Below, piece by piece: positions 1-9,523 of a stretch of DNA of 64,000 nt. Source of the DNA: Cryobacterium tepidiphilum (GTDB lineage Bacteria > Actinomycetota > Actinomycetes > Actinomycetales > Microbacteriaceae); contig NZ_RDSR01000014.1 in NCBI RefSeq assembly GCF_003716325.1, positions 1 to 64,000 on the forward strand. Direction: 5' to 3'. The translations under genes were made by a program, and so were the position numbers. The notes under the pieces were generated by a model. That model saw nothing but the letters and a program-made list of their open reading frames with translations, was not told where the DNA came from and made no database searches. The stretch's first letter is position 1, and each line of letters begins with the position of its first letter.

Positions 1-119
1 TGGAGTTCGCCGCCCGCCACGAGTTGCACAACACCGCCGTCGTCGCGCTCGAGGGCTCGCCCGACGGCGGGGGAGCCGTCGACGAGGGTCTGCAGACCGG
101 CCCGGGCGAGCCGGCCTAG
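1..119 (+). CDS. C-terminal fragment of an unidentified protein
   Basis: An open frame starting at base 3 enters from the left edge and stops at TAG 117-119, giving 38 visible residues. The end is rich in Gly, Glu and Pro, as in a disordered tail. The fragment is too short to assign a family. Its stop lies 10 bases from the stop of the convergent MarR gene. The start lies outside the window. Confidence 0.5.
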   Translation, partial: EFAARHELHNTAVVALEGSPDGGGAVDEGLQTGPGEPA

Positions 120-129
120 AGCGGTCCGG

Positions 130-594
130 TCAGCGTCCGCCGTCTTCGCACGGCGGCTCGGGGGCGCCCGCGCGCAGGCGATCACACAGCGAGATCAATT
201 GGGTGAGTTCGTCGTCGCTCAGCGCCCCGCCGACCCGCTCGGCGATGGAGCCCATGTGCGCCACGGCAACCCGCCGGAACAACTCGTACCCGGCATCCGT
301 CAGCGTCACAACGGCCCCGCGCCCGTCGGCGGGGTCGCTCTCCTTCGCCACGTACCCGCGCGACACCAGGCGATCCACCAGGCGGCTCACGCTGGGCTGG
401 GTGAGCAGCACATGCTGGTTGAGGTCGCGCAAACGGATGCGACGCTCCGGCTGGCGCGACAGATTGAAGAGCACGTCGTATTCGTTGAGGGAGATCTCCC
501 GGGACGGGAACGTCGCGGCCAGGCAGCGCATGACGCTCACCTGCGCGCGGAACAGCGACTCCCACGCCGTGACGGCCAGATTGCGGTTCGACAT
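130..594 (-). CDS. MarR family transcriptional regulator
   Basis: A 154-residue protein, the usual MarR length. The winged helix-turn-helix is clear: recognition helix around residues 66-80 (QPSVSRLVDRLVSRG) and a basic wing around 87-100 with the DPADGRGAVVTLTD pattern. MarR proteins are dimeric repressors or activators that usually respond to small phenolic or acidic ligands. A GAGAGGAG ribosome site lies just before the ATG. It is the last gene of the minus-strand operon that begins near 8306, 58 bases after the citryl-CoA-lyase-like gene, so it may be a second regulator of that pathway. Its ligand is unknown. Confidence 0.88.
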   Translation of the reverse strand: MSNRNLAVTAWESLFRAQVSVMRCLAATFPSREISLNEYDVLFNLSRQPERRIRLRDLNQHVLLTQPSVSRLVDRLVSRGYVAKESDPADGRGAVVTLTDAGYELFRRVAVAHMGSIAERVGGALSDDELTQLISLCDRLRAGAPEPPCEDGGR

Positions 595-652
595 CGCGCT
601 CCTCTCGCTGCTCCAACAATAGGGAGTGTCGCGCGGATCGGCAGGGATGCGC

Positions 653-1483
653 TCAGTGGCCCGGGAGGTGCCGTTCGGCGTGACCGGTGTACGGGGCCGT
701 CATCGGTGGCGGCAGCGGGCCCTTGATCCTGCGCCGGGAGCCGCTCTCCTCCCACGCGTGGGCGAGGATCCCGACCGACCGGCTGAGCACGAACAGGCCG
801 CGCGCGAGCTCCGGCTCGAAGCCCAGCTCGGCGTAGATGGTGGCGGTCGCCCCGTCGATGTTCATCGGCACGGGCTTGCTTCCCCGCCGCGCGAGCGCGG
901 ACTCCAGCGCGGTGATGTTCGCGAGATGGTCGCCCGAGATCTCACCCCGCCCGGCGGCCTCCTGCAGGAGCGTCAACAGCGGGTCCCGCCGCGGGTCGTG
1001 CCGGTGGAAGCGGTGACCGAACCCCGGGACGAAGCCGCCGCGCTCCCGGTAGCCGGCGACGATGGAATCTGCCACCTCGGCCCTGTCCTGGCCGGCGTCG
1101 ACGCGCCGTTGCATGCCGTGCAGCAGGCCCAGGCACTCCTGGCCGGCGCCGCCGTGCACGTCGCCGAGCGTGTTGACGGCGCTCGCCATGGCACCGTTCA
1201 GGCCGATCCCGCACGTGATCGCCATCCGTGCCACGGCGATGGACGGCGCCTGCGGGCCATGGTCGGCGCCCGACATGAGCGCCGCCTCGAGGAGGGCCGA
1301 CTGCGCTGGAGTGGGAAGGTCACCGCGCACGAGGAGCCAGATGGTGTCGACGAAACTGACCGCGCCGATCAGTTCCTGCACGGGGTAACCCCGGTACTGG
1401 ATGACGTCCGGCTCGATCCGGCTCACACCGGTCGACCACCAGTTGGCCGCATCCGCGGCTGTCGGTGAGGCGGGCATGGTCAT
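653..1483 (-). CDS. Citryl-CoA lyase-like protein (citrate synthase superfamily)
   Basis: At 276 residues this is far shorter than citrate synthase (about 430) but matches stand-alone citryl-CoA lyases. The three catalytic positions of the superfamily can be recognised: His110 in DVHGGAGQE, His157 in PGFGHRFHRHDPR and Asp210 in PMNIDGATA. Citryl-CoA lyase splits citryl-CoA to acetyl-CoA and oxaloacetate; relatives cleave similar acyl-CoAs. The ATG overlaps the stop of the CoA-transferase gene by 4 bases (ATGA), so the two are translationally coupled. This suggests the transferase makes the CoA thioester that this enzyme cleaves. A small methylcitrate- or citrate-synthase-like condensing enzyme is the alternative. 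Substrate is inferred from context. Confidence 0.8.
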   Translation of the reverse strand: MTMPASPTAADAANWWSTGVSRIEPDVIQYRGYPVQELIGAVSFVDTIWLLVRGDLPTPAQSALLEAALMSGADHGPQAPSIAVARMAITCGIGLNGAMASAVNTLGDVHGGAGQECLGLLHGMQRRVDAGQDRAEVADSIVAGYRERGGFVPGFGHRFHRHDPRRDPLLTLLQEAAGRGEISGDHLANITALESALARRGSKPVPMNIDGATATIYAELGFEPELARGLFVLSRSVGILAHAWEESGSRRRIKGPLPPPMTAPYTGHAERHLPGH

Positions 1484-2730
1484 AGTCCTCCTTCGTTTCG
1501 CAACCGCAGAATGTCAGCGGCGGTGAAGCCCACTTCGACGAGCACCTCGTCCGTGTGCTGGCCCAGGCGCGGCGGCCCGGTGCGTGGAACGCTCGTGCCG
1601 CCGTTGACGTGAATGCCGTGCCCGATCACCGCCACGACGTCGGACTCGGCGACAGAGCCCTCATCGCCCGTGGACGGGAACGGCACGTGGTGAACGAGAT
1701 CCCGGTGCCGGATCTGCTCATGCTCGAGTGCGCGCGCGACCGGCAGCACCTGGCCCACGGGCACGCCGGCCGCGGAGAGCACGCGCTCCCAGTTCTCCGC
1801 CGTGTCCTCAGCCAGGGCCGCTTCCAGCTCGTCGCGGAGGGCGTCGCGGTTCCGCTTGCGCGGTTCGCGCTCGCTGAAGCGAGCGTCGCCGGCGAGGTGC
1901 TCGGCGCGGAGGAGCCTGCAGAGCGTCTCGAACTGGCTCTGCTCGTTGGCGGCGATATTGAGCAGGCCCTCGCGGGTGCGGAACGTGCCCGATGGCGCGG
2001 CCGTGAAATTCTCGTTCCCCATCGGGACGGGCTCCTTGCCGGCCACGAGGTAGTTGGAGACGACCCAGCCCATGGAGGTCATGGCGGTCTCCAACATGGA
2101 GATGTCGATGACCACCCCCGCCCCGGTGCGCGCGCGGTGATACAGGGCAGCGCTGATGGCGAATGCCGCGGCCGTTCCGCCGAGCGTGTCTGCGAGGGGG
2201 TAGCCGGCGCGCATGGGCCCGGTGTGCCCCGTGCCCGTGGACGACATCATGCCGCTCAGGCCCTGGATGATCTGGTCGTAGGCCGGCCGGTCCCGCAGGG
2301 GCCCCGTCGCCCCGAACCCCGAAACGGCGCAATAGACGAGTGTGGGTTGAATGGCCAGCAACTGCTCTCCGCTGAAGCCCAGACGGGCGAGGACCCCCGG
2401 ACGGAAGTTCTCCACCAGCACATCCGCGCTCTTCACCAGTGCGGTGAAGGCCTCCTTGCCGGCCGCCGTCTTGAGGTTGACGGTGATCGACCGCTTGCCG
2501 GCGTTCTGGGCGATGAAGGATGCGCCCATCTTCTGGGCGTTCAGGGCCGGGTCCGCCCCCAGCTGCCGGGCCAGATCGCCGGTTCCCGGCGTTTCGACCT
2601 TGATCACGTCGGCCCCGAGCAGGCTGAGCTGGTAGCTGGCGAACGGGCCGGCGAGCACGTTGGTGAGATCGAGGACGCGGACGCCGCCGAGGAGGTTCGA
2701 ATCGCCGGGAAGGGACGTCGGGGAGGTCAC
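1480..2730 (-). CDS. CaiB/BaiF (family III) CoA-transferase
   Basis: A 416-residue family III CoA-transferase, the normal length. The N-terminal part carries the GVRVLDLTNVLAGPFA signature (about residues 16-31), followed by DVIKVETPGTGD. The catalytic aspartate that forms the acyl anhydride is most likely Asp181 in GYPLADTLGG. These enzymes move CoA between carboxylic acids, often from succinyl- or acetyl-CoA. The gene overlaps the citryl-CoA-lyase-like gene by 4 bases and follows the dehydrogenase gene by 16 bases. In this operon, which also has a tricarboxylate transporter, activation of an imported citrate-like acid is the natural role. The exact substrate cannot be read from the sequence. 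Confidence 0.88.
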   Translation of the reverse strand: MTSPTSLPGDSNLLGGVRVLDLTNVLAGPFASYQLSLLGADVIKVETPGTGDLARQLGADPALNAQKMGASFIAQNAGKRSITVNLKTAAGKEAFTALVKSADVLVENFRPGVLARLGFSGEQLLAIQPTLVYCAVSGFGATGPLRDRPAYDQIIQGLSGMMSSTGTGHTGPMRAGYPLADTLGGTAAAFAISAALYHRARTGAGVVIDISMLETAMTSMGWVVSNYLVAGKEPVPMGNENFTAAPSGTFRTREGLLNIAANEQSQFETLCRLLRAEHLAGDARFSEREPRKRNRDALRDELEAALAEDTAENWERVLSAAGVPVGQVLPVARALEHEQIRHRDLVHHVPFPSTGDEGSVAESDVVAVIGHGIHVNGGTSVPRTGPPRLGQHTDEVLVEVGFTAADILRLRNEGGL

Positions 2731-2746
2731 TGGTGCGAAATCCCGT

Positions 2747-3511
2747 TCATCGGCTGCCGAGATTCGTCAGGTATTCAGCGGATGCGGAGCTCATGGTGTT
2801 CGGAACGCCGAGGTCGGCGAGGTACGACGAGGTGTCCCGCATCTCCTGGGCGCGGCGCTTGGCGTGGGTCACGCTGCCCGTGCGGAACCGGTCGATGACG
2901 GCGTAACCGTCGCCGGCGAGCTGGTTGGCCACCTGGTCGCGGGTCCAGTCGACCAGGTCAGCGGCTTCCGCCGCCTCCATGGCTTCGCAGATGATGGACG
3001 CGAGGCCCTTCATGAACACGCTTCGCAGGAGTTTGTGTGCCATGGCGTCGCCGGGCCGCGACCCAGGCAGGAGCTCCACGTCCGCGCCGCAGGCGGTGAA
3101 GAGGTCGGCAGCGACGGCGGTCTGCGTGCCGGCGATCATCACCGGCGTGCGGGAACCGTGAACGGAAACCGGACCCAGGACGGCGACGTCGACGAAGTGT
3201 GCGCCGCTGGCATCCACCCGCTCGCCGAGCGCGGCCATGACCTTCGGCGACGCGGAGGTCAGGTCGATGTAGCTGCAGCCAGCCGGGAGGTGGTCGATCG
3301 TGGCGTCGACGATCGCGGGGGCCACGGCGGCGCCCGTCATGACCAGGACCGCATCGGCACCCGCCACCGCCGCGGCGGGCGAGTCGACGAGGGTGACACC
3401 CGGCACGCCCGTGATGACGGGGTCGAAGCCCACCACATCGTGGCCGTTCTCCAGCAGTGCAGCGGCGTATCGTGAACCGACCTCACCGAGGCCAATGACT
3501 GCACATTTCAT
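2747..3511 (-). CDS. NAD(P)-dependent dehydrogenase of the 6-phosphogluconate / 3-hydroxyisobutyrate dehydrogenase type
   Basis: Start placed at ATG 3511, where the protein opens directly into the Rossmann fold (MKCAVIGLGEVGSRYA, GxGxxG at residues 7-12) and an AGAAAGAAG stretch lies at ribosome-site distance. An in-frame ATG eight codons upstream is possible but less likely. The product is 254 residues. The C-terminal helical part resembles the DUF1932 domain of putative phosphogluconate dehydrogenases, which is shorter than in 3-hydroxyisobutyrate dehydrogenase. It would oxidise a beta-hydroxy acid, or reduce its keto form. It lies between the IclR and CoA-transferase genes in one operon, so it probably acts on an intermediate of the same catabolic route. 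Confidence 0.78.
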   Translation of the reverse strand: MKCAVIGLGEVGSRYAAALLENGHDVVGFDPVITGVPGVTLVDSPAAAVAGADAVLVMTGAAVAPAIVDATIDHLPAGCSYIDLTSASPKVMAALGERVDASGAHFVDVAVLGPVSVHGSRTPVMIAGTQTAVAADLFTACGADVELLPGSRPGDAMAHKLLRSVFMKGLASIICEAMEAAEAADLVDWTRDQVANQLAGDGYAVIDRFRTGSVTHAKRRAQEMRDTSSYLADLGVPNTMSSASAEYLTNLGSR

Positions 3512-3565
3512 TCCGTTCGCTTCTTTCTGTTTCAACTCGGGGTGTTCTTCAGCTGGTGGGGTGCG

Positions 3566-4387
3566 TCAAGTCAGGCGGCCGATGGCGTGCGCCGCCCGGG
3601 TCACCTCGGGAACCAGGGCTTCCAGGTCTTGCCTGGTGTGGGTCTCCGTGGGACTCAGGAGCGCGAGGATGGCGATGACGTCACCGGAGGCATCCGTCAC
3701 CGGAACGCCGAGGCTTCGGGTGCCGATGGCCCGCTCCTCTTCGGAGACGTGGTATCCCCGGGCGCGGATCTGCTGGAGTTCCTGCCACAGATCGTCGGGG
3801 GTGAAGACGTCGCCCCTGATGGTGCGCATGGTGCCACCGACAGCGTCCATGAGGGCGTCGAACTCCGGCCGCTCCATGTACGCGGCGAAGACCTTTCCCG
3901 CACCGAGGTGCAGGGGAAGGGGGCGGCCGTTGGGAAGTTCGTAGCGCAGCGGATCCTTGCCGCTCACCCGGGCGATCGGCACGCGCTGGAGTCCGTACCG
4001 CACCTGCAGGGCGACCGACAGGCCGGTTGCCGCGGCCAGCTCCTGCATGAAGCGCTTCGCGTGGCTGGACAGGGTGTCGTCGCGCGTGAACGCGTACGAG
4101 GTCACGAGGTTGACGACGCCGAGCCGGTAGCGGAGGTTCTCGGCGATGACGAACTGCCTGCGTTCGAGCACGGTGAGAATTCGCAGGGCCGTCGCGGGAG
4201 AGAGGCCGGTCGCCTGGGCGATGTCCACCAGGCGCTGGGGTTGGCCGGCGTGCGCGAGCGCTTCGAGGACGTCGAGCGATCGTTCAAGCGATCGCATGCC
4301 GCCCGGTCGGGTCTTGCCGTCGTTCGCCTCGGCCAGCGTGGTTTCCGTCATCGTCTCCGCCTCGTTGTGGGTGGGGGCCGCGATCAT
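3566..4387 (-). CDS. IclR family transcriptional regulator
   Basis: A 273-residue IclR-type protein. The winged helix-turn-helix lies around residues 35-85 (SLERSLDVLEALAHAG, then GLSPATALRILTVLERR). The C-terminal GAF-like effector domain (about 110-270) includes the family pattern GRPLPLHLGAGKVFAAYM. IclR proteins are usually local repressors of carboxylate or aromatic catabolism. The gene sits inside the operon, 33 bases after the RraA-type gene. A perfect 15-bp palindrome just downstream of the operon promoter (8241-8255) is a plausible binding site. An internal ATG at residue 13 (MTETTLAEA) is an equally acceptable start. Confidence 0.9.
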   Translation of the reverse strand: MIAAPTHNEAETMTETTLAEANDGKTRPGGMRSLERSLDVLEALAHAGQPQRLVDIAQATGLSPATALRILTVLERRQFVIAENLRYRLGVVNLVTSYAFTRDDTLSSHAKRFMQELAAATGLSVALQVRYGLQRVPIARVSGKDPLRYELPNGRPLPLHLGAGKVFAAYMERPEFDALMDAVGGTMRTIRGDVFTPDDLWQELQQIRARGYHVSEEERAIGTRSLGVPVTDASGDVIAILALLSPTETHTRQDLEALVPEVTRAAHAIGRLT

Positions 4388-4420
4388 CTGACCACGGCCC
4401 CCGTTCCGCTCATCCTGCCG

Positions 4421-5050
4421 CTAATCCTCGTCGCTCGGCGTGGCCAGCCGCGCCAGGATGCCGGCTTCTTTTTCGCGCTTGACTTCTCCCGCTTCGATGA
4501 CGGAGTCGACGTGGGCGGGTGCGATCACGACAACGCCGTCCGCATCGCCGATGATGTAGTCGCCGGGCAGCACCGCGACGCCGCCGACCGACACGGGCAC
4601 GTTGATCCTGCCGGGACCGAACTTGTACGGCCCCGCCGGGGTGACGGCCCGCGCGAACACCGGAACTCCGAGCTCGGCGAGGCCGTCGACATCCCGCACG
4701 GCCCCGTCGATGACGAAACCGGCACCCCCGGCGACCTGTGCGCGCCGGCCGATGAGCTCGCCGATCAGCGCGCGCGTCTCGTCTCCTTCGCCGCTGATCA
4801 CCAGCACGTCGTCCTGGCGCACGAGCGGGAGGGCCTCGTGGATCGTCTTGTTGTCGCCGGCCCGCGTCCAGATCGTCAGGGCGCGTCCGACCAGCACCGC
4901 ACCGCGCCACATCGGCTTGATCGCCGAGTGCATGAGGCCGAGCCGGTCCATCACGTCACCGAGAGTCGCGGTGGGAACGAGTGCGAGGCGCTCAAGCCGT
5001 TCCCGTTCGCCCAAGCCCGGCAGCACGCCGGCTTCGATCGTGTCCGTCAT
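4421..5050 (-). CDS. RraA-type aldolase / oxaloacetate decarboxylase family protein
   Basis: A 209-residue RraA-fold protein. The core signature GFVIDGAVRDVDG (about 111-123) supplies the Arg119-Asp120 pair used by class II pyruvate aldolases of this fold. Residue 98, at the upstream metal-ligand position of the Asp-X20-Arg-Asp motif, is Glu here. Family members split 4-hydroxy-4-methyl-2-oxoglutarate or 4-carboxy-4-hydroxy-2-oxoadipate and decarboxylate oxaloacetate. RraA itself lacks the aldolase motif and inhibits RNase E. The start overlaps the TctC stop by 4 bases. With a citryl-CoA-lyase-like protein in the same operon, oxaloacetate decarboxylation is an attractive role, but it is inferred. 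Confidence 0.8.
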   Translation of the reverse strand: MTDTIEAGVLPGLGERERLERLALVPTATLGDVMDRLGLMHSAIKPMWRGAVLVGRALTIWTRAGDNKTIHEALPLVRQDDVLVISGEGDETRALIGELIGRRAQVAGGAGFVIDGAVRDVDGLAELGVPVFARAVTPAGPYKFGPGRINVPVSVGGVAVLPGDYIIGDADGVVVIAPAHVDSVIEAGEVKREKEAGILARLATPSDED

Positions 5051-6072
5051 TTCGCGTCGGCCATCATCTGTGGGAGGAGCTTCTTGTACTGGGTCTCCTG
5101 CTTGGTCCAGTAGTCGATGTAGTCCGCCGAGTTCAGGTACGCCGTGGGGAGTCCGAGCTTGTTCAGCTGGTCCACGACGGCGGGGTCCTGGATCACCTTG
5201 CCGAGGGCATCCTCGAGCTTGGTGGCGACATCCTCGGGAAGGCCGGCCGGGGCGACGTAGCCGCGAGCGGTTCCCTCATCCACGTCGTAGCCCTCTTCCT
5301 TGAACGTGTGCGCATCCGGCAGGGAGGGGCTGCGCTCCGCGCCCATGACGCCGATTACCCTGATGTCGTTCGACCCGGAATCCACGATGTCGGAGACGTT
5401 CCCGACGTAGATGTCGACGTGGTCGCCGAGGAACGCGGCCATGGCGGATGCGGCACCTTCGGAGAACGCAACGAGGTTGAACTTGGCACCGGTTGCCTCT
5501 TCGACAGAGGTCATGGCGAAGTGCTCACCGGTCTGGATGCCGGTGGTCGTGGCGGAGAGCTCGCCCGGGTGCGCCTTCGCGTAGTCGATCAGGGCACCGA
5601 GGTCCTCGAATTTGCTGTCCTTCTTCACGGCGATGACCTGCGGGTCGAAGACCTGGCGGGCCAGCGGGAGGAAGCTCTCACGGGTGAAGGTGGCACCGCG
5701 GGACGGGTCGAGCGGGGTGACGACGACCGACGGAGCACTCACGGCGCCGATCGTGTAGCCGTCCGGCTTCGAGTTGGCCAGGGCGGTGTAACCGATCTGG
5801 CCGCCGGCTCCCGGCTTGTTGGTCACCTGCACGTTGACGCCCAGTTCTTTCTCGAGCGCCGGAGCCACCACGCGAGCGGCCGTGTCGACGGAGCCGCCGG
5901 GGGCGTAGGCGACGATGAGGTCGATGGTCTTTCCCTTCTGGGGCCAGTTCGACTCGGACTTCGCTGCGGGGCCGGACGCGCCGCCGGCGGCATCCGCTGT
6001 GTTGCTGCATGCGGTGAGGCCGGCCAGCAGGATTCCTGCGGACAGGAGGGCGGCGATCTTCGTTGATTTCAT
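5047..6072 (-). CDS. tctC: Tripartite tricarboxylate transporter substrate-binding lipoprotein
   Basis: A 341-residue TctC/Bug-family extracytoplasmic binding protein. The N-terminus is a lipoprotein signal with lipobox LTAC, putting the modified Cys at residue 22, so the protein is anchored to the outer face of the membrane. Family motifs follow: the DLIVAYAPGGSVDTAAR segment near residues 51-67 and NKPGAGGQIGYTALANSKPDG near 85-105. These bind a carboxylate (citrate, tartrate or similar) and hand it to TctAB. It sits between tctA (31-base gap) and the RraA-type gene (4-base overlap). Bug proteins bind varied ligands, so the ligand is uncertain. Confidence 0.92.
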   Translation of the reverse strand: MKSTKIAALLSAGILLAGLTACSNTADAAGGASGPAAKSESNWPQKGKTIDLIVAYAPGGSVDTAARVVAPALEKELGVNVQVTNKPGAGGQIGYTALANSKPDGYTIGAVSAPSVVVTPLDPSRGATFTRESFLPLARQVFDPQVIAVKKDSKFEDLGALIDYAKAHPGELSATTTGIQTGEHFAMTSVEEATGAKFNLVAFSEGAASAMAAFLGDHVDIYVGNVSDIVDSGSNDIRVIGVMGAERSPSLPDAHTFKEEGYDVDEGTARGYVAPAGLPEDVATKLEDALGKVIQDPAVVDQLNKLGLPTAYLNSADYIDYWTKQETQYKKLLPQMMADAK

Positions 6073-6103
6073 GTCGTTCCTCTTTCTTTGGTGGTGGGGT
6101 GGA

Positions 6104-7603
6104 TCAGGCTTCGGGGTCGACGTTCAGTGCCGCGGGCTTGCGGATCTTCAGGAGGGGCGTCAGCAGCACGAACGCGCCGATGACGATGAAGGTCAGGGCG
6201 AACGGCCGGGTGAAGATGGAGAAGTCGCCCTGGGAGATCTCGAGGGACTCCCGGAGGGAGCGTTCCATCAGCGGGCCGAGCACGAGGGTCAGCACGAGGG
6301 GCGCGAGCGGGATGTCGAGTCGGCGGAAGACGAGTCCCACGATGCCGAACAGGATCATCACGAAGACGTCGAACACGTTGTAGTTGATCGTGTACGAGCC
6401 CACGACCAGGAAGATCATGATGATGGCGAGCAGGATGCCGTGGGGGATCTTCAGGATCGACGTCCACACACCGATGAGCGGCACGTTGAGGATCAGGCAG
6501 ATCAGGTTGCCGATGAACAGGCTGGCGATGATCGCCCACGCGACCTCGGAGTGCTGGGTGAACAGCGAGGGACCCGGGGTGAGGCCCTGCTGCAGGAACG
6601 CGCCCATCAGCACGGCGATCGTCGGCGAGGCGGGGATGCCCAGGGTGAACAACGGGATGAGGGCCGAGTTCGCGTGTGCGTTGTTGGCCGTCTCGGGCCC
6701 GGCGACGCCCTCGATGGCGCCGGTGCCGAGTTGCTTGCGGAAACGGGAGAACTTGCTCTCGGCCCCGTAGGACAGCAGCGAGGTGACGGTGCCGGTGAGG
6801 CCCGGCACGAGGCCGGTGGAGAAGCCGATCACGGTTCCGCGACCGATGGCCGGCGCTGCCCGGCGGAGGTCCTGCCGGTTCGGCAGCATCCCGCGCAGTC
6901 CGCCGGTGAGCGACTTCGTGGAACCCTGCGCCGTTGCGCTCACGAGGATCTCGCTGAGGCCGAAGATGCCGACGATCACCGCGACGAAGCTGACGCCGTC
7001 GAGCAGGTTGGGCGAGCCGAAGGTGAACCGCGGAGCCCCGATCGTGGGGTCGATTCCGACGAGTGCGATGAGGAGCCCGATCACGCCGGAGAGCAGCGCC
7101 TTGACCATCGACTTGCCCGCAAGTGCGACCAGCAGCGAGATGCCCAGGATCATGAGGCCGAAGAACTCCGGCGGCCCGACCTTCAGGCCGAGGGAGCCCA
7201 GCGGCTTTGCCGCCACGACGAGTCCGGCCGTCGCGACGGTGCCGCCGACGAAGGAGCCGATCGCCGCGATGCCGAGGGCGACGCCCGCGCGGCCCTTCTT
7301 GGTCATCTGGTAGCCGTCGATCACTGTGACAGCGGATGCCGCCTCGCCGGGTGTGTTCAGCAGCACGCTCGTGATCGTTCCGCCGTACTGGCTGCCGTAG
7401 AAGATGGCGCCCAGCATGATGATGGCGCTCGTCGGGTCCATGCCGAGGGTCAGCGGGATCAGGATAGCGGTACCGGCGACCGGTCCCACGCCCGGCAGCA
7501 CGCCGACGAGAGTGCCGATGATGCAGCCGATCAGGGCGAACAACAGGTTCTGCAGCGTGAGGGCGCTGGCGAAGCCGCCGAGCAGATCGTTCAGAACGTC
7601 CAT
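6104..7603 (-). CDS. tctA: Tripartite tricarboxylate transporter large membrane subunit
   Basis: A 499-residue multi-spanning protein of about a dozen membrane segments. The TctA signature is plain near the N-terminus: GVLPGVGPVAGTAILIPLT (about residues 34-52), then the YGSQYGG motif near 70. It forms the Na+- or H+-coupled channel subunit and works with TctB and the TctC lipoprotein. The gene begins 4 bases after the tctB stop and is followed by tctC, giving the order tctB-tctA-tctC, all upstream of the catabolic genes. Confidence 0.95.
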   Translation of the reverse strand: MDVLNDLLGGFASALTLQNLLFALIGCIIGTLVGVLPGVGPVAGTAILIPLTLGMDPTSAIIMLGAIFYGSQYGGTITSVLLNTPGEAASAVTVIDGYQMTKKGRAGVALGIAAIGSFVGGTVATAGLVVAAKPLGSLGLKVGPPEFFGLMILGISLLVALAGKSMVKALLSGVIGLLIALVGIDPTIGAPRFTFGSPNLLDGVSFVAVIVGIFGLSEILVSATAQGSTKSLTGGLRGMLPNRQDLRRAAPAIGRGTVIGFSTGLVPGLTGTVTSLLSYGAESKFSRFRKQLGTGAIEGVAGPETANNAHANSALIPLFTLGIPASPTIAVLMGAFLQQGLTPGPSLFTQHSEVAWAIIASLFIGNLICLILNVPLIGVWTSILKIPHGILLAIIMIFLVVGSYTINYNVFDVFVMILFGIVGLVFRRLDIPLAPLVLTLVLGPLMERSLRESLEISQGDFSIFTRPFALTFIVIGAFVLLTPLLKIRKPAALNVDPEA

Positions 7604-7606
7604 GGG

Positions 7607-8209
7607 TCAGAGTCCGATCGTGTTCAGGAAGCCGAACATCGAGAGGGGCAGCGTCACCGACAGAAGGTCGGTGAAGACGTGGAAGACGCCGACGCTTCCG
7701 GCGAGGGCGATGATCAGCGATGTGTACCAGGTGCGCTTGGCCCGGATGGCCAGGTGGAAGTAGAGGAACAGGAACATCGCAATCTGGTAGCCGAGGACGC
7801 CCATGAGCGCCGCGAGCACGATGAGGCTCACGATCACCGTGACCACGTGCGGGTAGTCGATGGCCTCGTCGATCGCGGTGTCGCCGGCGGCGCCCGATCG
7901 AATCGCTCGCCGCGACTGCACGATCCAGGCCAGCACGAGCAGGCCCATCGCGATCGAGAGGTAGAAGGGGAAGAACCCGGGGCCCGGACCGAACGCGACC
8001 ATCAGGCCGAGGTCCAGGGAGTTCAGCGCGGTGACGATCGCGACGATGAAGAAGAACGCCTGCACGCCGAGCTCGAGGCGACGATAGCCGGCAGAATCCG
8101 CCGGGCGGCTGGGGGGAGCGTCGACGATGTCCGTCGCAGGGTGCGGAGAATCAGGGAGCACGCGTGTACCTTTCGCCATTGAAAAGCCGTCGGCCTGGAG
8201 CCGACGCAT
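7607..8209 (-). CDS. tctB: Tripartite tricarboxylate transporter small membrane subunit
   Basis: First gene of the operon, up to 200 residues, with a polar N-terminal tail and four hydrophobic segments (about residues 50-70, 80-100, 120-150 and 165-190), the usual TctB layout. TctB is weakly conserved; the assignment rests on topology and position directly before tctA. Two starts are possible: ATG 8209 or ATG 8179 (MAKGTRVL). Neither has a convincing ribosome site. A 7-bp hairpin (8188-8194 with 8200-8206) lies between them. Confidence 0.85.
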   Translation of the reverse strand: MRRLQADGFSMAKGTRVLPDSPHPATDIVDAPPSRPADSAGYRRLELGVQAFFFIVAIVTALNSLDLGLMVAFGPGPGFFPFYLSIAMGLLVLAWIVQSRRAIRSGAAGDTAIDEAIDYPHVVTVIVSLIVLAALMGVLGYQIAMFLFLYFHLAIRAKRTWYTSLIIALAGSVGVFHVFTDLLSVTLPLSMFGFLNTIGL

Positions 8210-8240
8210 CGAAGGGAAGTGAGGAGGAGAGAAACGACAA

Positions 8241-8255
8241 TTTCATTGTGTGAAA
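8241..8255. promoter_or_regulatory. Perfect palindrome, likely operator of the tricarboxylate operon
   Basis: TTTCATTGTGTGAAA is an inverted repeat (TTTCA, 5-base spacer, TGAAA). It lies about 15-30 bases downstream of the predicted transcription start and before tctB, where a bound repressor would block the operon. A further half-palindromic GAAACTTCGTTTT stretch overlaps its end. IclR-family operators are often GAAA/TTTC-type repeats, and the operon encodes an IclR protein; that pairing is inferred. The operon's MarR protein is the alternative binder. Confidence 0.55.
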
Positions 8256-8277
8256 CTTCGTTTTATTTTCTTGCCTA

Positions 8278-8306
8278 ACTAAAACCTACGTCCGGAAAGA
8301 TGTCAA
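8278..8306 (-). promoter_or_regulatory. Promoter of the tctBAC catabolic operon
   Basis: On the minus strand a consensus -35 box TTGACA (8306-8301) is followed after 17 bases by TTTAGT (8283-8278), matching 4 of 6 positions of TATAAT. Transcription would begin near 8271, about 60 bases before the tctB start. It is one of the few full sigma70-type promoters in the window; most genes show only a -10 box. Confidence 0.65.
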
Positions 8307-8601
8307 GCGCGGGGCCACGTTCCGCGTGCTCGAGCCGCGTGGCCGCAAAGCAAAAGGGTCGGTCACGAAGGACCGACCGAAATGCCACCGCAAAAAAACT
8401 TCTGAAAAATAACGGTTGGATAACTGGCGCCCGTTACCCGTTCGTTATATATTGATTGAGCGTCAACCGTTTGCTGTGGCGGGGAAACGCGAATGTGATT
8501 GCAGGACACTCTTGGTGCAAGGGAAGAGGGTCGGTCGTTAGCCTCTACGACCGGCCCTCAATCACGTTAACCGCGACCCGCGGCATCCGTTGCGGTGCGA
8601 C
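8307..8601. other. Intergenic stretch without a gene
   Basis: No supported gene. It is less GC-rich than its surroundings around 8390-8470. It holds one perfect 8-bp hairpin (GGTCGGTC 8357-8364, GACCGACC 8371-8378). Read on the minus strand, the hairpin is followed by CTTTTG and could be a weak terminator for the regulator gene that ends at 8710. An ORF that can be drawn at 8456-8764 has no ribosome site and runs into the regulator gene in antisense. Confidence 0.5.
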
Positions 8602-8663
8602 GCGCGGGTTGAACGCCGTTACGCGCGCTGAATTCAACCCGCGCAGGGGCGTTCAACCCGCGC
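8602..8663. repeat. Long inverted repeat with a competing middle arm
   Basis: GCGCGGGTTGAACGCC (8602-8617) is perfectly complementary to GGCGTTCAACCCGCGC (8648-8663), giving a 16-bp stem. A third copy of the shorter arm, TTCAACCCGCGC (8633-8644), lies inside the loop and can pair with the first arm instead, over 12 bp. The element lies 47 bases past the stop of the minus-strand regulator gene. It may be a factor-assisted terminator or a 3' RNA switch; there is no U-tract. Confidence 0.6.
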
Positions 8664-8709
8664 AGCTCCAGACTCAGGGCGGGGGCGGGCGCGCAGCCCG
8701 CGCCGCGTC

Positions 8710-9429
8710 TCAGAAGAGGTCGGGGCTCGGCGTCGACGCCTGGCGGATCGACACATCGGCGTGACGATCGAAGCGGTAGCCGACACCGCGCACGGTGCGC
8801 ACGATCCCCTCGTAGTGCCCGAGCTTGGAGCGCAGCCGGCGCACGTGCACGTCGATCGTGCGCTCGCTGGGAACGTCGTCCTCGTCGGCGGCGCTCCACA
8901 GTGACGAGATGAGCTCGGTGCGCTCGATCGTACGGCCCTCCCGCAGCACCAGGTACTGCAGCAACTCGAACTCCTTGTAGGTGAGGGAGGCCGGCTGGTG
9001 GTCGAGCAGCACGCGCTTGCGCGAGATGTCGATGACGACACCGTCCCGCGCGCGGTCGAGCTCTTCGTGCTCCCGCTGGCCGGCGAGGGCCGACGGGTCC
9101 TGCAGCGCCAGCCGCACGACGTCGACGTCGCGTCCGCCGGCACCCTGCGGGGCGAGCGCCACGGCCGCGTAGGTCTGCGAGTCGGGCGCGAGGTCTGCCG
9201 TGAGCGACTTCAGGGCCTCGACGATGCGGTGCAGGCTGGTGCCCGCCGCCGCCGCCTTGGCCTCGTCGATCCCCACATAGAGCACGAACCCGCGGGCTTC
9301 GGTGCCTTCGGGCACCGCGCGGATGCGAGGTGCCGGTGCGGCAGGCGCAGGCGCGGCCTGGGCGCGAGCCGGGAATGCCGGGTGGGCGATGCGAGTGGCA
9401 CGGGCGGAATCGATCTGGGCGAGGGACAT
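8710..9429 (-). CDS. Orphan OmpR-type winged-helix regulator without a receiver domain
   Basis: A 239-residue protein. The C-terminal half (about 130-222) is an OmpR/PhoB DNA-binding domain: SLTYKEFELLQYLVLREGR, then TIDVHVRRLRSKLG near 191-204 and the wing GVGYRF near 215. Residues 1-42 are an Ala/Pro-rich linker. Residues 45-115 form a small alpha/beta region that is not a response-regulator receiver (no phospho-Asp pattern). A ribosome site AAAGGA precedes the ATG. Upstream lie a Cys-rich leader ORF and two hairpins, suggesting control at the RNA level. Its target genes cannot be read here. Confidence 0.8.
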   Translation of the reverse strand: MSLAQIDSARATRIAHPAFPARAQAAPAPAAPAPRIRAVPEGTEARGFVLYVGIDEAKAAAAGTSLHRIVEALKSLTADLAPDSQTYAAVALAPQGAGGRDVDVVRLALQDPSALAGQREHEELDRARDGVVIDISRKRVLLDHQPASLTYKEFELLQYLVLREGRTIERTELISSLWSAADEDDVPSERTIDVHVRRLRSKLGHYEGIVRTVRGVGYRFDRHADVSIRQASTPSPDLF

Positions 9430-9460
9430 GGGAGAAATCCTTTGGAATGATGATGCGAGT

Positions 9461-9491
9461 GAACCCGGCGCGTCAGCGCCAGAACGGGTTC
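9461..9491 (-). promoter_or_regulatory. Hairpin between leader ORF and regulator gene
   Basis: GAACCC-GGCGC (9461-9471) pairs with GCGCC (9476-9480) and, after a 5-base bulge, GGGTTC (9486-9491): an 11-bp interrupted stem with a GTCA loop. It lies 31 bases before the regulator start codon. With the hairpin at 9524-9540 it could act as terminator/antiterminator or mask translation. Role inferred. Confidence 0.45.
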
Positions 9492-9523
9492 ATGAGTGTG
9501 TTGGCCGCTCACGGGGAGCGGGG

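Follow-up and report, generated by a model that had tools for sequence, protein, structure and literature searches.

The stretch analysed here, called the window, comprises the first 64,000 nucleotides of contig NZ_RDSR01000014.1 of the actinobacterium Cryobacterium tepidiphilum (assembly GCF_003716325.1), and is a contig start within a 2.86 Mb genome. On its minus strand, from position 8209 down to 130, ORF (open reading frame) calling and Pfam profile searches identified nine intact ORFs, which encode in order TctB, TctA, TctC, an RraA-like protein, an IclR-type regulator, a dehydrogenase, a family III CoA-transferase, a citryl-CoA-lyase-like protein (hereafter the lyase) and a MarR-type regulator. 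All nine proteins score above the curated cut-off of their own Pfam family, and the matches of TctA, TctB and TctC identify the transporter as a tripartite tricarboxylate transporter (TTT). The distances between successive genes, from TctB to MarR, are 3, 31, −4, 33, 30, 16, −4, and 58 bases. A first-pass annotation of the window had described the same gene order, with 4-base overlaps between the transferase and lyase genes and between the TctC and RraA genes, and both overlaps are real; of the span it gave, 130 to 8306, the start is correct, but the genes stop at 8209, 97 bases short, and no ORF of at least 60 amino acids overlaps 8210 to 8306. A scan for sigma-70 promoters across positions 1 to 9500 returned none, with 0.6 expected. 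The features of the gene run are collected in Table 1.

Table 1. Genes of the Cryobacterium tepidiphilum operon, listed from its upstream to its downstream end
Feature	Position in window	Strand	Profile matches and remarks
TctB, small membrane subunit of TTT	7607..8209	-	Pfam TctB 69.4 bits, cut-off 29.1; heads gene run
TctA, large TTT membrane subunit	6104..7603	-	Pfam TctA 497.7 bits
TctC, solute-binding TTT protein	5047..6072	-	Pfam TctC 143.4 bits
RraA-like protein, possible class II aldolase/decarboxylase (E98, R119, D120)	4421..5050	-	Pfam RraA-like 156.5 bits, cut-off 24.5
IclR-type regulator, between RraA and dehydrogenase genes	3566..4387	-	Pfam HTH_IclR and IclR_C
NAD(P)-binding, beta-hydroxyacid-dehydrogenase-like protein with DUF1932 domain (K168)	2747..3535	-	Pfam NAD_binding_2 53.4 bits, DUF1932 41.1 bits
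Family III CoA-transferase, candidate catalytic Asp D181	1480..2730	-	Pfam CoA_transf_3 384.2 bits
Citryl-CoA-lyase-like protein, short citrate synthase fold	653..1483	-	NCBIfam NF004864 416.9 bits, cut-off 261
MarR-type regulator, downstream end	130..594	-	Pfam MarR_2 56.4 bits

The gene run is a real, conserved and apparently catabolic operon. Its first eight genes, from TctB to the lyase, are found in the same order and on one strand in a genome from another genus of the same family (locus L151), with protein identities to the window of 44, 88, 78, 71, 64, 61, 66, and 68%, respectively. The 4-base overlap of the lyase and transferase genes is there too, and the long ORF that comes next lies on the opposite strand. 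This exact repeat rules out a chance gene order, and because the order recurs in a second genus at 44 to 88% identity, the eight-gene set without MarR looks like a selected unit. The operon joins two modules (see below); MarR, which the first-pass annotation had counted as a member and which is present in the window, has no match at the L151 locus.

To place the operon among its relatives, 92 related loci were assembled from 12 of the 29 plasmid matches to the lyase and the best 80 of at least 586 genome matches; being drawn from the best-ranked matches, they are biased to close relatives. The loci are at least 15 kb long in 78 cases, and because gene calls in them are rough, with some antisense picks, neighbor counts rest on tblastn. 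The exact eight-gene order was found in none of the 92, although one (L061) has those gene types in a different arrangement, and in one (L151) of the 17 other genomes with a lyase match in the family and order searches whose surroundings were read, G399 (L146) among them. The lyase is patchily distributed across the genomes sampled. It scores above the NF004864 cut-off in one of 57 genomes of the genus, and was detected at E ≤1e-60 in 9 of 398 genomes sampled from the family and in 11 of 396 sampled from the order. At E 1e-40 it was detected in 5 of 396 genomes sampled from the phylum. The window genome is included in every count.

The lyase belongs to a family already named by NCBIfam, "citryl-CoA lyase" (NF004864). 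The closest solved structure by sequence is the Hydrogenobacter citryl-CoA lyase 6hxp (E 1.3e-38), which is also the closest fold to a model of the lyase monomer (mean predicted local distance difference test score 79.7; Foldseek E 4.2e-14). We take H229, H264, H305, R314, D362, R387, and R407 of Escherichia coli GltA to be its catalytic and oxaloacetate-binding residues; six of the seven are kept in the window lyase, where H75, H110, H157, R165, D210, and R235 align with the first six. In an alignment of 93 lyases (the window and the 92 loci) these six residues, together with R252 and K254, are invariant. The catalytic triad proposed in the first-pass annotation, His110, His157, and Asp210, is thus present and invariant, and aligns with GltA H264, H305, and D362. 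As a counterpart of R407, R271 was considered and rejected, since it aligns with GltA R418.

The transferase is closely tied to the lyase. A transferase homologue was found in 87 of the 92 lyase loci, and in 77 it adjoins the lyase gene, on the same strand and no more than 200 bases away, which bears out the view that the two form a unit. Among the remaining loci, the alignment ends are 228 to 265 bases apart in L030, L040, and L102, the transferase lies 2.3 to 8.2 kb from the lyase in L024, L065, L092, L093, L098, and L105, and there is no transferase on the lyase strand within reach in L027, L047, L073, L080, L087, and L090, the L047 contig stopping before any transferase. D181, presumably the catalytic Asp of family III CoA-transferases, is conserved in all 85 aligned transferases. 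The window transferase falls far below the cut-off in all seven NCBIfam models that it matched, for example 277.8 bits against 750 for succinate-glutarate, 267.3 against 522 for oxalate, and 227.5 against 700 for mesaconate CoA-transferase. In L018, L021, and L029 the transferase is merely 31 to 33% identical to that of the window while the lyase is 53 to 57% identical, indicating that the lyase can be paired with a different kind of transferase; these three loci are on Azospirillum and Agrobacterium plasmids, and their gene order is lyase followed by transferase. A lyase of 55% identity adjoining a CoA-transferase is also encoded on the Cupriavidus metallidurans CH34 megaplasmid (L022, 10001-10786), although a passage of the 2010 CH34 genome paper states that citryl-CoA synthetase and citryl-CoA lyase are not encoded (PMC2864759).

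On the phylogenetic tree of the lyases, the window sequence is placed in a 41-row branch with loci containing aconitase, Tct, and major facilitator superfamily (MFS) transporter genes; this branch has a Shimodaira-Hasegawa-like approximate likelihood ratio test (SH-aLRT) support of 88 and is not starred. A separate 31-row branch (SH-aLRT 84) has thiamine pyrophosphate (TPP)-enzyme, pyrroloquinoline quinone (PQQ)-dehydrogenase, or QuiC neighbors, and 18 mostly proteobacterial rows stand apart. In the TPP/PQQ class as a whole, 33 of the 92 loci, the lyase is accompanied by a varying set of a TPP enzyme, aldehyde dehydrogenase, PQQ-dependent dehydrogenase, QuiC, and shikimate dehydrogenase. The C-terminal arginine R271, present in the window lyase, is found in only 3 of these 33 loci versus 53 of the 59 others, and the TPP/PQQ-class lyases, which mostly do not have it, perhaps act on another substrate.

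What lies beside the lyase in relatives bears on its substrate. An aconitate hydratase gene, acnA, is near the lyase gene in 8 of the 92 loci, and in 6 (L036, L037, L039, L056, L069, and L081) it is directly downstream on the same strand. The AcnA of L036 reaches 995 bits in one AcnA subfamily model (cut-off 905) and 982 bits in another (cut-off 686). Twelve genomes were searched for AcnA paralogs, seven of them with a lyase-side AcnA; positions were matched by hand to locus ranges, and L021 was left out. The lyase-side protein might have been the best-scoring, presumably housekeeping copy, and this was rejected: in all seven genomes it is a second, lower-scoring paralog, with a better-scoring AcnA encoded elsewhere. 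Three of the other five genomes have a second AcnA away from the lyase. A flavoprotein resembling the tricarballylate dehydrogenase TcuA is encoded in 9 of the 92 loci (the match in L048 is weak, at 30%), including 4 of the 6 with acnA directly downstream of the lyase gene; the two that were scored reach 352 and 357 bits, under the cut-off of 369. Tct transporter genes are found in 31 of the 92 loci. The second aconitase paralog and the tricarballylate-dehydrogenase-like gene beside the lyase point to a tricarboxylate. A citrate-like tertiary-hydroxy tricarboxylate is thus supported as the probable substrate, in agreement with the active-site residues and with the first-pass annotation, and both plain and substituted citrate would fit.

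RraA-fold aldolases have metal motifs of the form D-X20-R-D or G-X20-R-D-X2-E/D. The window protein shares the fold family and the R-D residues with the 4-hydroxy-4-methyl-2-oxoglutarate/4-carboxy-4-hydroxy-2-oxoadipate (HMG/CHA) aldolases of the protocatechuate and gallate pathways, but has Glu at the first motif position and Gly at the last, and at 144.5 bits is under the NCBIfam cut-off of 179 for CHA aldolase/oxaloacetate decarboxylase. Glu occupies the first position in 26 of the 33 RraA relatives listed, two of which (L159 and L160) duplicate L032 and L034. For the HMG/CHA aldolase, one paper speaks of two motifs and of an oxaloacetate decarboxylase side activity (PMC5065237), and such an activity is plausible for the RraA-like protein. 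The dehydrogenase (NAD_binding_2 plus DUF1932), to which the first-pass annotation gave no role in its route, matches the NCBIfam model of 3-hydroxyisobutyrate dehydrogenase (E 6.2e-9), is weakly similar to tartronate semialdehyde reductase (NCBIfam model, E 5.8e-5; structure 1yb4, E 8.3e-6), and is most like uncharacterized proteins; a literature search for DUF1932 gave no relevant account.

Genes for IclR, TctBAC, RraA, and the DUF1932 dehydrogenase also occur together without transferase or lyase, on an Arthrobacter plasmid (L132) and in two genomes (L136 and L137). Identity to the window proteins in these three is 72 to 73% for TctA, 56 to 66% for RraA, and 53 to 55% for the dehydrogenase, and TctA and TctC together span 61 to 73%; for comparison, TctA in the lyase loci L095 and L100 is 67 to 69% identical. 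There the module is followed by a DctM-like permease gene, for which L132 and L136 were scored, and by a gene for a PF04199 cyclase. None of the 11 genomes or records carrying the DUF1932 dehydrogenase (for L132, the plasmid only) has a lyase above the cut-off, and in ten of them the lyase search gave matches of at most 76 bits, as in control genomes. RraA was looked for in all of the 11 except G463; it adjoins the dehydrogenase in 9 and is 2.3 kb away in L145. Conversely, RraA accompanies Tct and the lyase in 11 of the 92 loci, and 10 of these 11 have a D-2-hydroxyacid dehydrogenase rather than the DUF1932 type, which is found only in L061; the one D-2-hydroxyacid dehydrogenase that was scored is similar to phosphoglycerate dehydrogenase and glyoxylate reductase but stays under the cut-off. 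There seem to be two functional parts, RraA with a dehydrogenase and transferase with lyase. Mapped on the lyase tree, the RraA-dehydrogenase label has to change three times, so the modules were probably combined more than once. This speaks for a shared pathway that centers on an oxaloacetate-type intermediate, but against taking RraA to be no more than the enzyme that follows the lyase. Its assignment in the first-pass annotation as the oxaloacetate decarboxylase behind the lyase is unsupported or overstated, given the lyase-free RraA-dehydrogenase-Tct loci and the Glu in place of the motif Asp. The genome search for co-occurrence that the first-pass annotation had suggested thus has a divided outcome: the exact set occurs once more, and transferase and lyase usually adjoin, but TctBAC-RraA-dehydrogenase also stands without the lyase.

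Outside the operon, the RraA-DUF1932 dehydrogenase pair is found in Thermus oshimai (L130, 9355-10765) together with 4-hydroxybenzoate 3-monooxygenase, catechol 2,3-dioxygenase, and a member of the PIG-L family; in that organism the DUF1932-type dehydrogenase may accordingly take part in ring cleavage. On Priestia plasmids (L131, 3929-8915; L133, 1905-6891), RraA and a 30% identical dehydrogenase are encoded near an annotated citrate:proton symporter.

We propose that the transferase and the lyase constitute a CoA-transferase-driven citrate-type lyase. TctABC would import a citrate-type tricarboxylate, and the family III transferase would move CoA from acetyl-CoA or succinyl-CoA onto the carboxymethyl arm of the acid. 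Retro-Claisen cleavage of the thioester by the lyase would then yield acetyl-CoA (or an acyl-CoA) and an oxaloacetate-type 2-oxo acid. With acetyl-CoA as both donor and product the reactions would form a cycle, with the net conversion of citrate to acetate and oxaloacetate, and with neither ATP nor an acyl carrier protein (ACP)-bound prosthetic group. RraA may decarboxylate the oxo-acid, and the dehydrogenase may feed further hydroxy-acids into the oxaloacetate node or reduce the product. The substrate, the CoA donor, the roles of RraA and the dehydrogenase, and regulation by IclR are what we infer, and we regard the full route in this operon as having an even chance of being correct. More tentatively, and on balance doubtfully, the transferase-lyase cycle could be an aerobic equivalent of citrate lyase that occurs widely, with interchangeable front ends (Tct, aconitase plus tricarballylate dehydrogenase, or MFS) and back ends (RraA plus either dehydrogenase family). 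An IclR gene is near the lyase gene in 57 or 33 of the 92 loci, depending on the threshold.

Several observations weigh against the proposed route. GltA R407 falls on G255 of the window lyase, beside R252 and K254, which makes the recognition of one carboxylate uncertain. The lyase branch of the window is long (0.77) and meets other long branches, and none of the starred groups that comprise up to half the rows includes it. Of the 92 lyases, the one most identical to that of the window, at 65%, is a TPP/PQQ-class protein (L065). The association with aconitase is seen in relatives and not in the window operon, the genome of which has two acnA genes, both outside the operon, and the L036 AcnA falls short of TIGR01341 (928.3 bits versus a cut-off of 945). 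The RraA-like protein, with E98-X20-R119-D120 and G123, matches neither metal motif exactly, and the existence of RraA-dehydrogenase-Tct loci without a lyase means that the transporter need not serve the lyase substrate. The complete gene set was seen in one other genome only. Finally, an aerobe with a tricarboxylic acid (TCA) cycle can use citrate with no need to cleave it, and would gain little from the route for plain citrate, which favors a modified citrate.

A serious rival to plain citrate is thus a substituted citrate, with hydroxycitrate as the preferred candidate, which the lyase would cleave to acetyl-CoA and oxaloglycolate; RraA would decarboxylate the latter to hydroxypyruvate, and the dehydrogenase, or the D-2-hydroxyacid dehydrogenase of relatives, would reduce it to glycerate. 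This reading assigns a function to each of the enzymes and accounts for the need of an aerobe for such a pathway, and it fits both the weak likeness of the window dehydrogenase to tartronate semialdehyde reductase and the RraA-Tct-lyase loci of relatives with their D-2-hydroxyacid dehydrogenases. We nevertheless consider it unlikely; the window dehydrogenase is somewhat nearer to 3-hydroxyisobutyrate dehydrogenase, and nearest to uncharacterized proteins, and the top-ranked literature matches held nothing relevant on hydroxycitrate breakdown. A literature search on piscidic and eucomic acid breakdown likewise gave nothing useful among its top-ranked matches. We give a similarly low probability to two independent pathways sharing one transcript, with TctBAC-RraA-dehydrogenase serving a malate- or tartrate-like or 4-hydroxy-2-oxo acid and transferase-lyase appended for another substrate. 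The lyase-free modules of L132, L136, and L137 and the lack of a lyase above the cut-off in the 11 genomes or records with the DUF1932 dehydrogenase would be expected from such an arrangement, and the window IclR is nearer to the module IclRs (31 to 45% identity) than to most transferase-linked ones (27 to 33%; 35% in L061, which has both). However, a second genus preserves the order of all eight genes, and RraA with a different dehydrogenase is also encoded beside Tct and the lyase in other lineages. Least probable of the alternatives, in our judgment, is a lyase with another, perhaps smaller, 3-hydroxy-3-carboxyacyl-CoA as its substrate, for example citramalyl-CoA, which would give acetyl-CoA and pyruvate. 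Family III CoA-transferases for citramalate exist, and both the scarcity of R271 in the TPP/PQQ class, which indicates that the family may vary in substrate, and the fact that, among the 92, the window lyase is most identical to a member of that class would accord with it, but the window lyase keeps R165, R235, and R271 and groups with the aconitase and Tct loci on the tree.

The lyase family and every other family in the operon are already known and named. Citryl-CoA synthetase uses ATP. The Hydrogenobacter citryl-CoA lyase of the reverse TCA cycle, the best structural match by sequence and by fold, is likewise a stand-alone short protein of citrate synthase fold, but there citrate is activated by citryl-CoA synthetase (PMC9768450), whereas the window has a family III transferase and a transporter in a seemingly catabolic operon. 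ATP-citrate lyase shares in its C-terminal module the fold and the catalytic His and Asp residues of the window lyase; among the nine operon proteins, the Pfam search found no succinyl-CoA-synthetase-like or ATP-binding part. With the citrate lyase CitDEF the operon would share the net conversion of citrate to acetate and oxaloacetate by a cycle of transfer then cleavage, but CitDEF employs an ACP with a special prosthetic group and the CitE lyase subunit, in contrast to CoA and a citrate-synthase-fold lyase. No match to the alpha subunit CitF was found in the window genome in a search in which the E. coli control scored above the cut-off, consistent with the earlier suggestion of citrate cleavage without CitDEF. 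The citramalyl-CoA lyase of itaconate degradation has a different fold. That pathway follows the same logic of CoA transfer and then carbon-carbon cleavage of a citramalyl-CoA-type thioester (PMC12290011), and uses a hydratase, whereas the window operon encodes none. Among the matches listed in the literature searches, which covered part of the published work, there was no experimental account of the transferase-lyase pair or the operon, and no earlier description of the gene set, as the first-pass annotation had supposed.

If the proposed route is correct, many soil and plant-associated bacteria degrade citrate-like acids by a pathway hidden under the label "citryl-CoA lyase". This annotation is often taken as a sign of carbon fixation by the reverse TCA cycle, and caution would be needed in using it as a marker of autotrophy. 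Citrate lyase would also have a simple replacement made up of two enzymes, and an orphan branch of the family III CoA-transferases would gain a substrate.

Directly upstream of the operon, also on the minus strand, is a gene (8710-9429) encoding a protein whose sole Pfam match is an OmpR/PhoB-type regulator C-terminal DNA-binding domain (residues 145-220); Pfam did not match a receiver domain in this protein. Between this gene and the operon, at 8602-8663, are three GCGCGGGTTGAA-type repeats that form overlapping palindromes.

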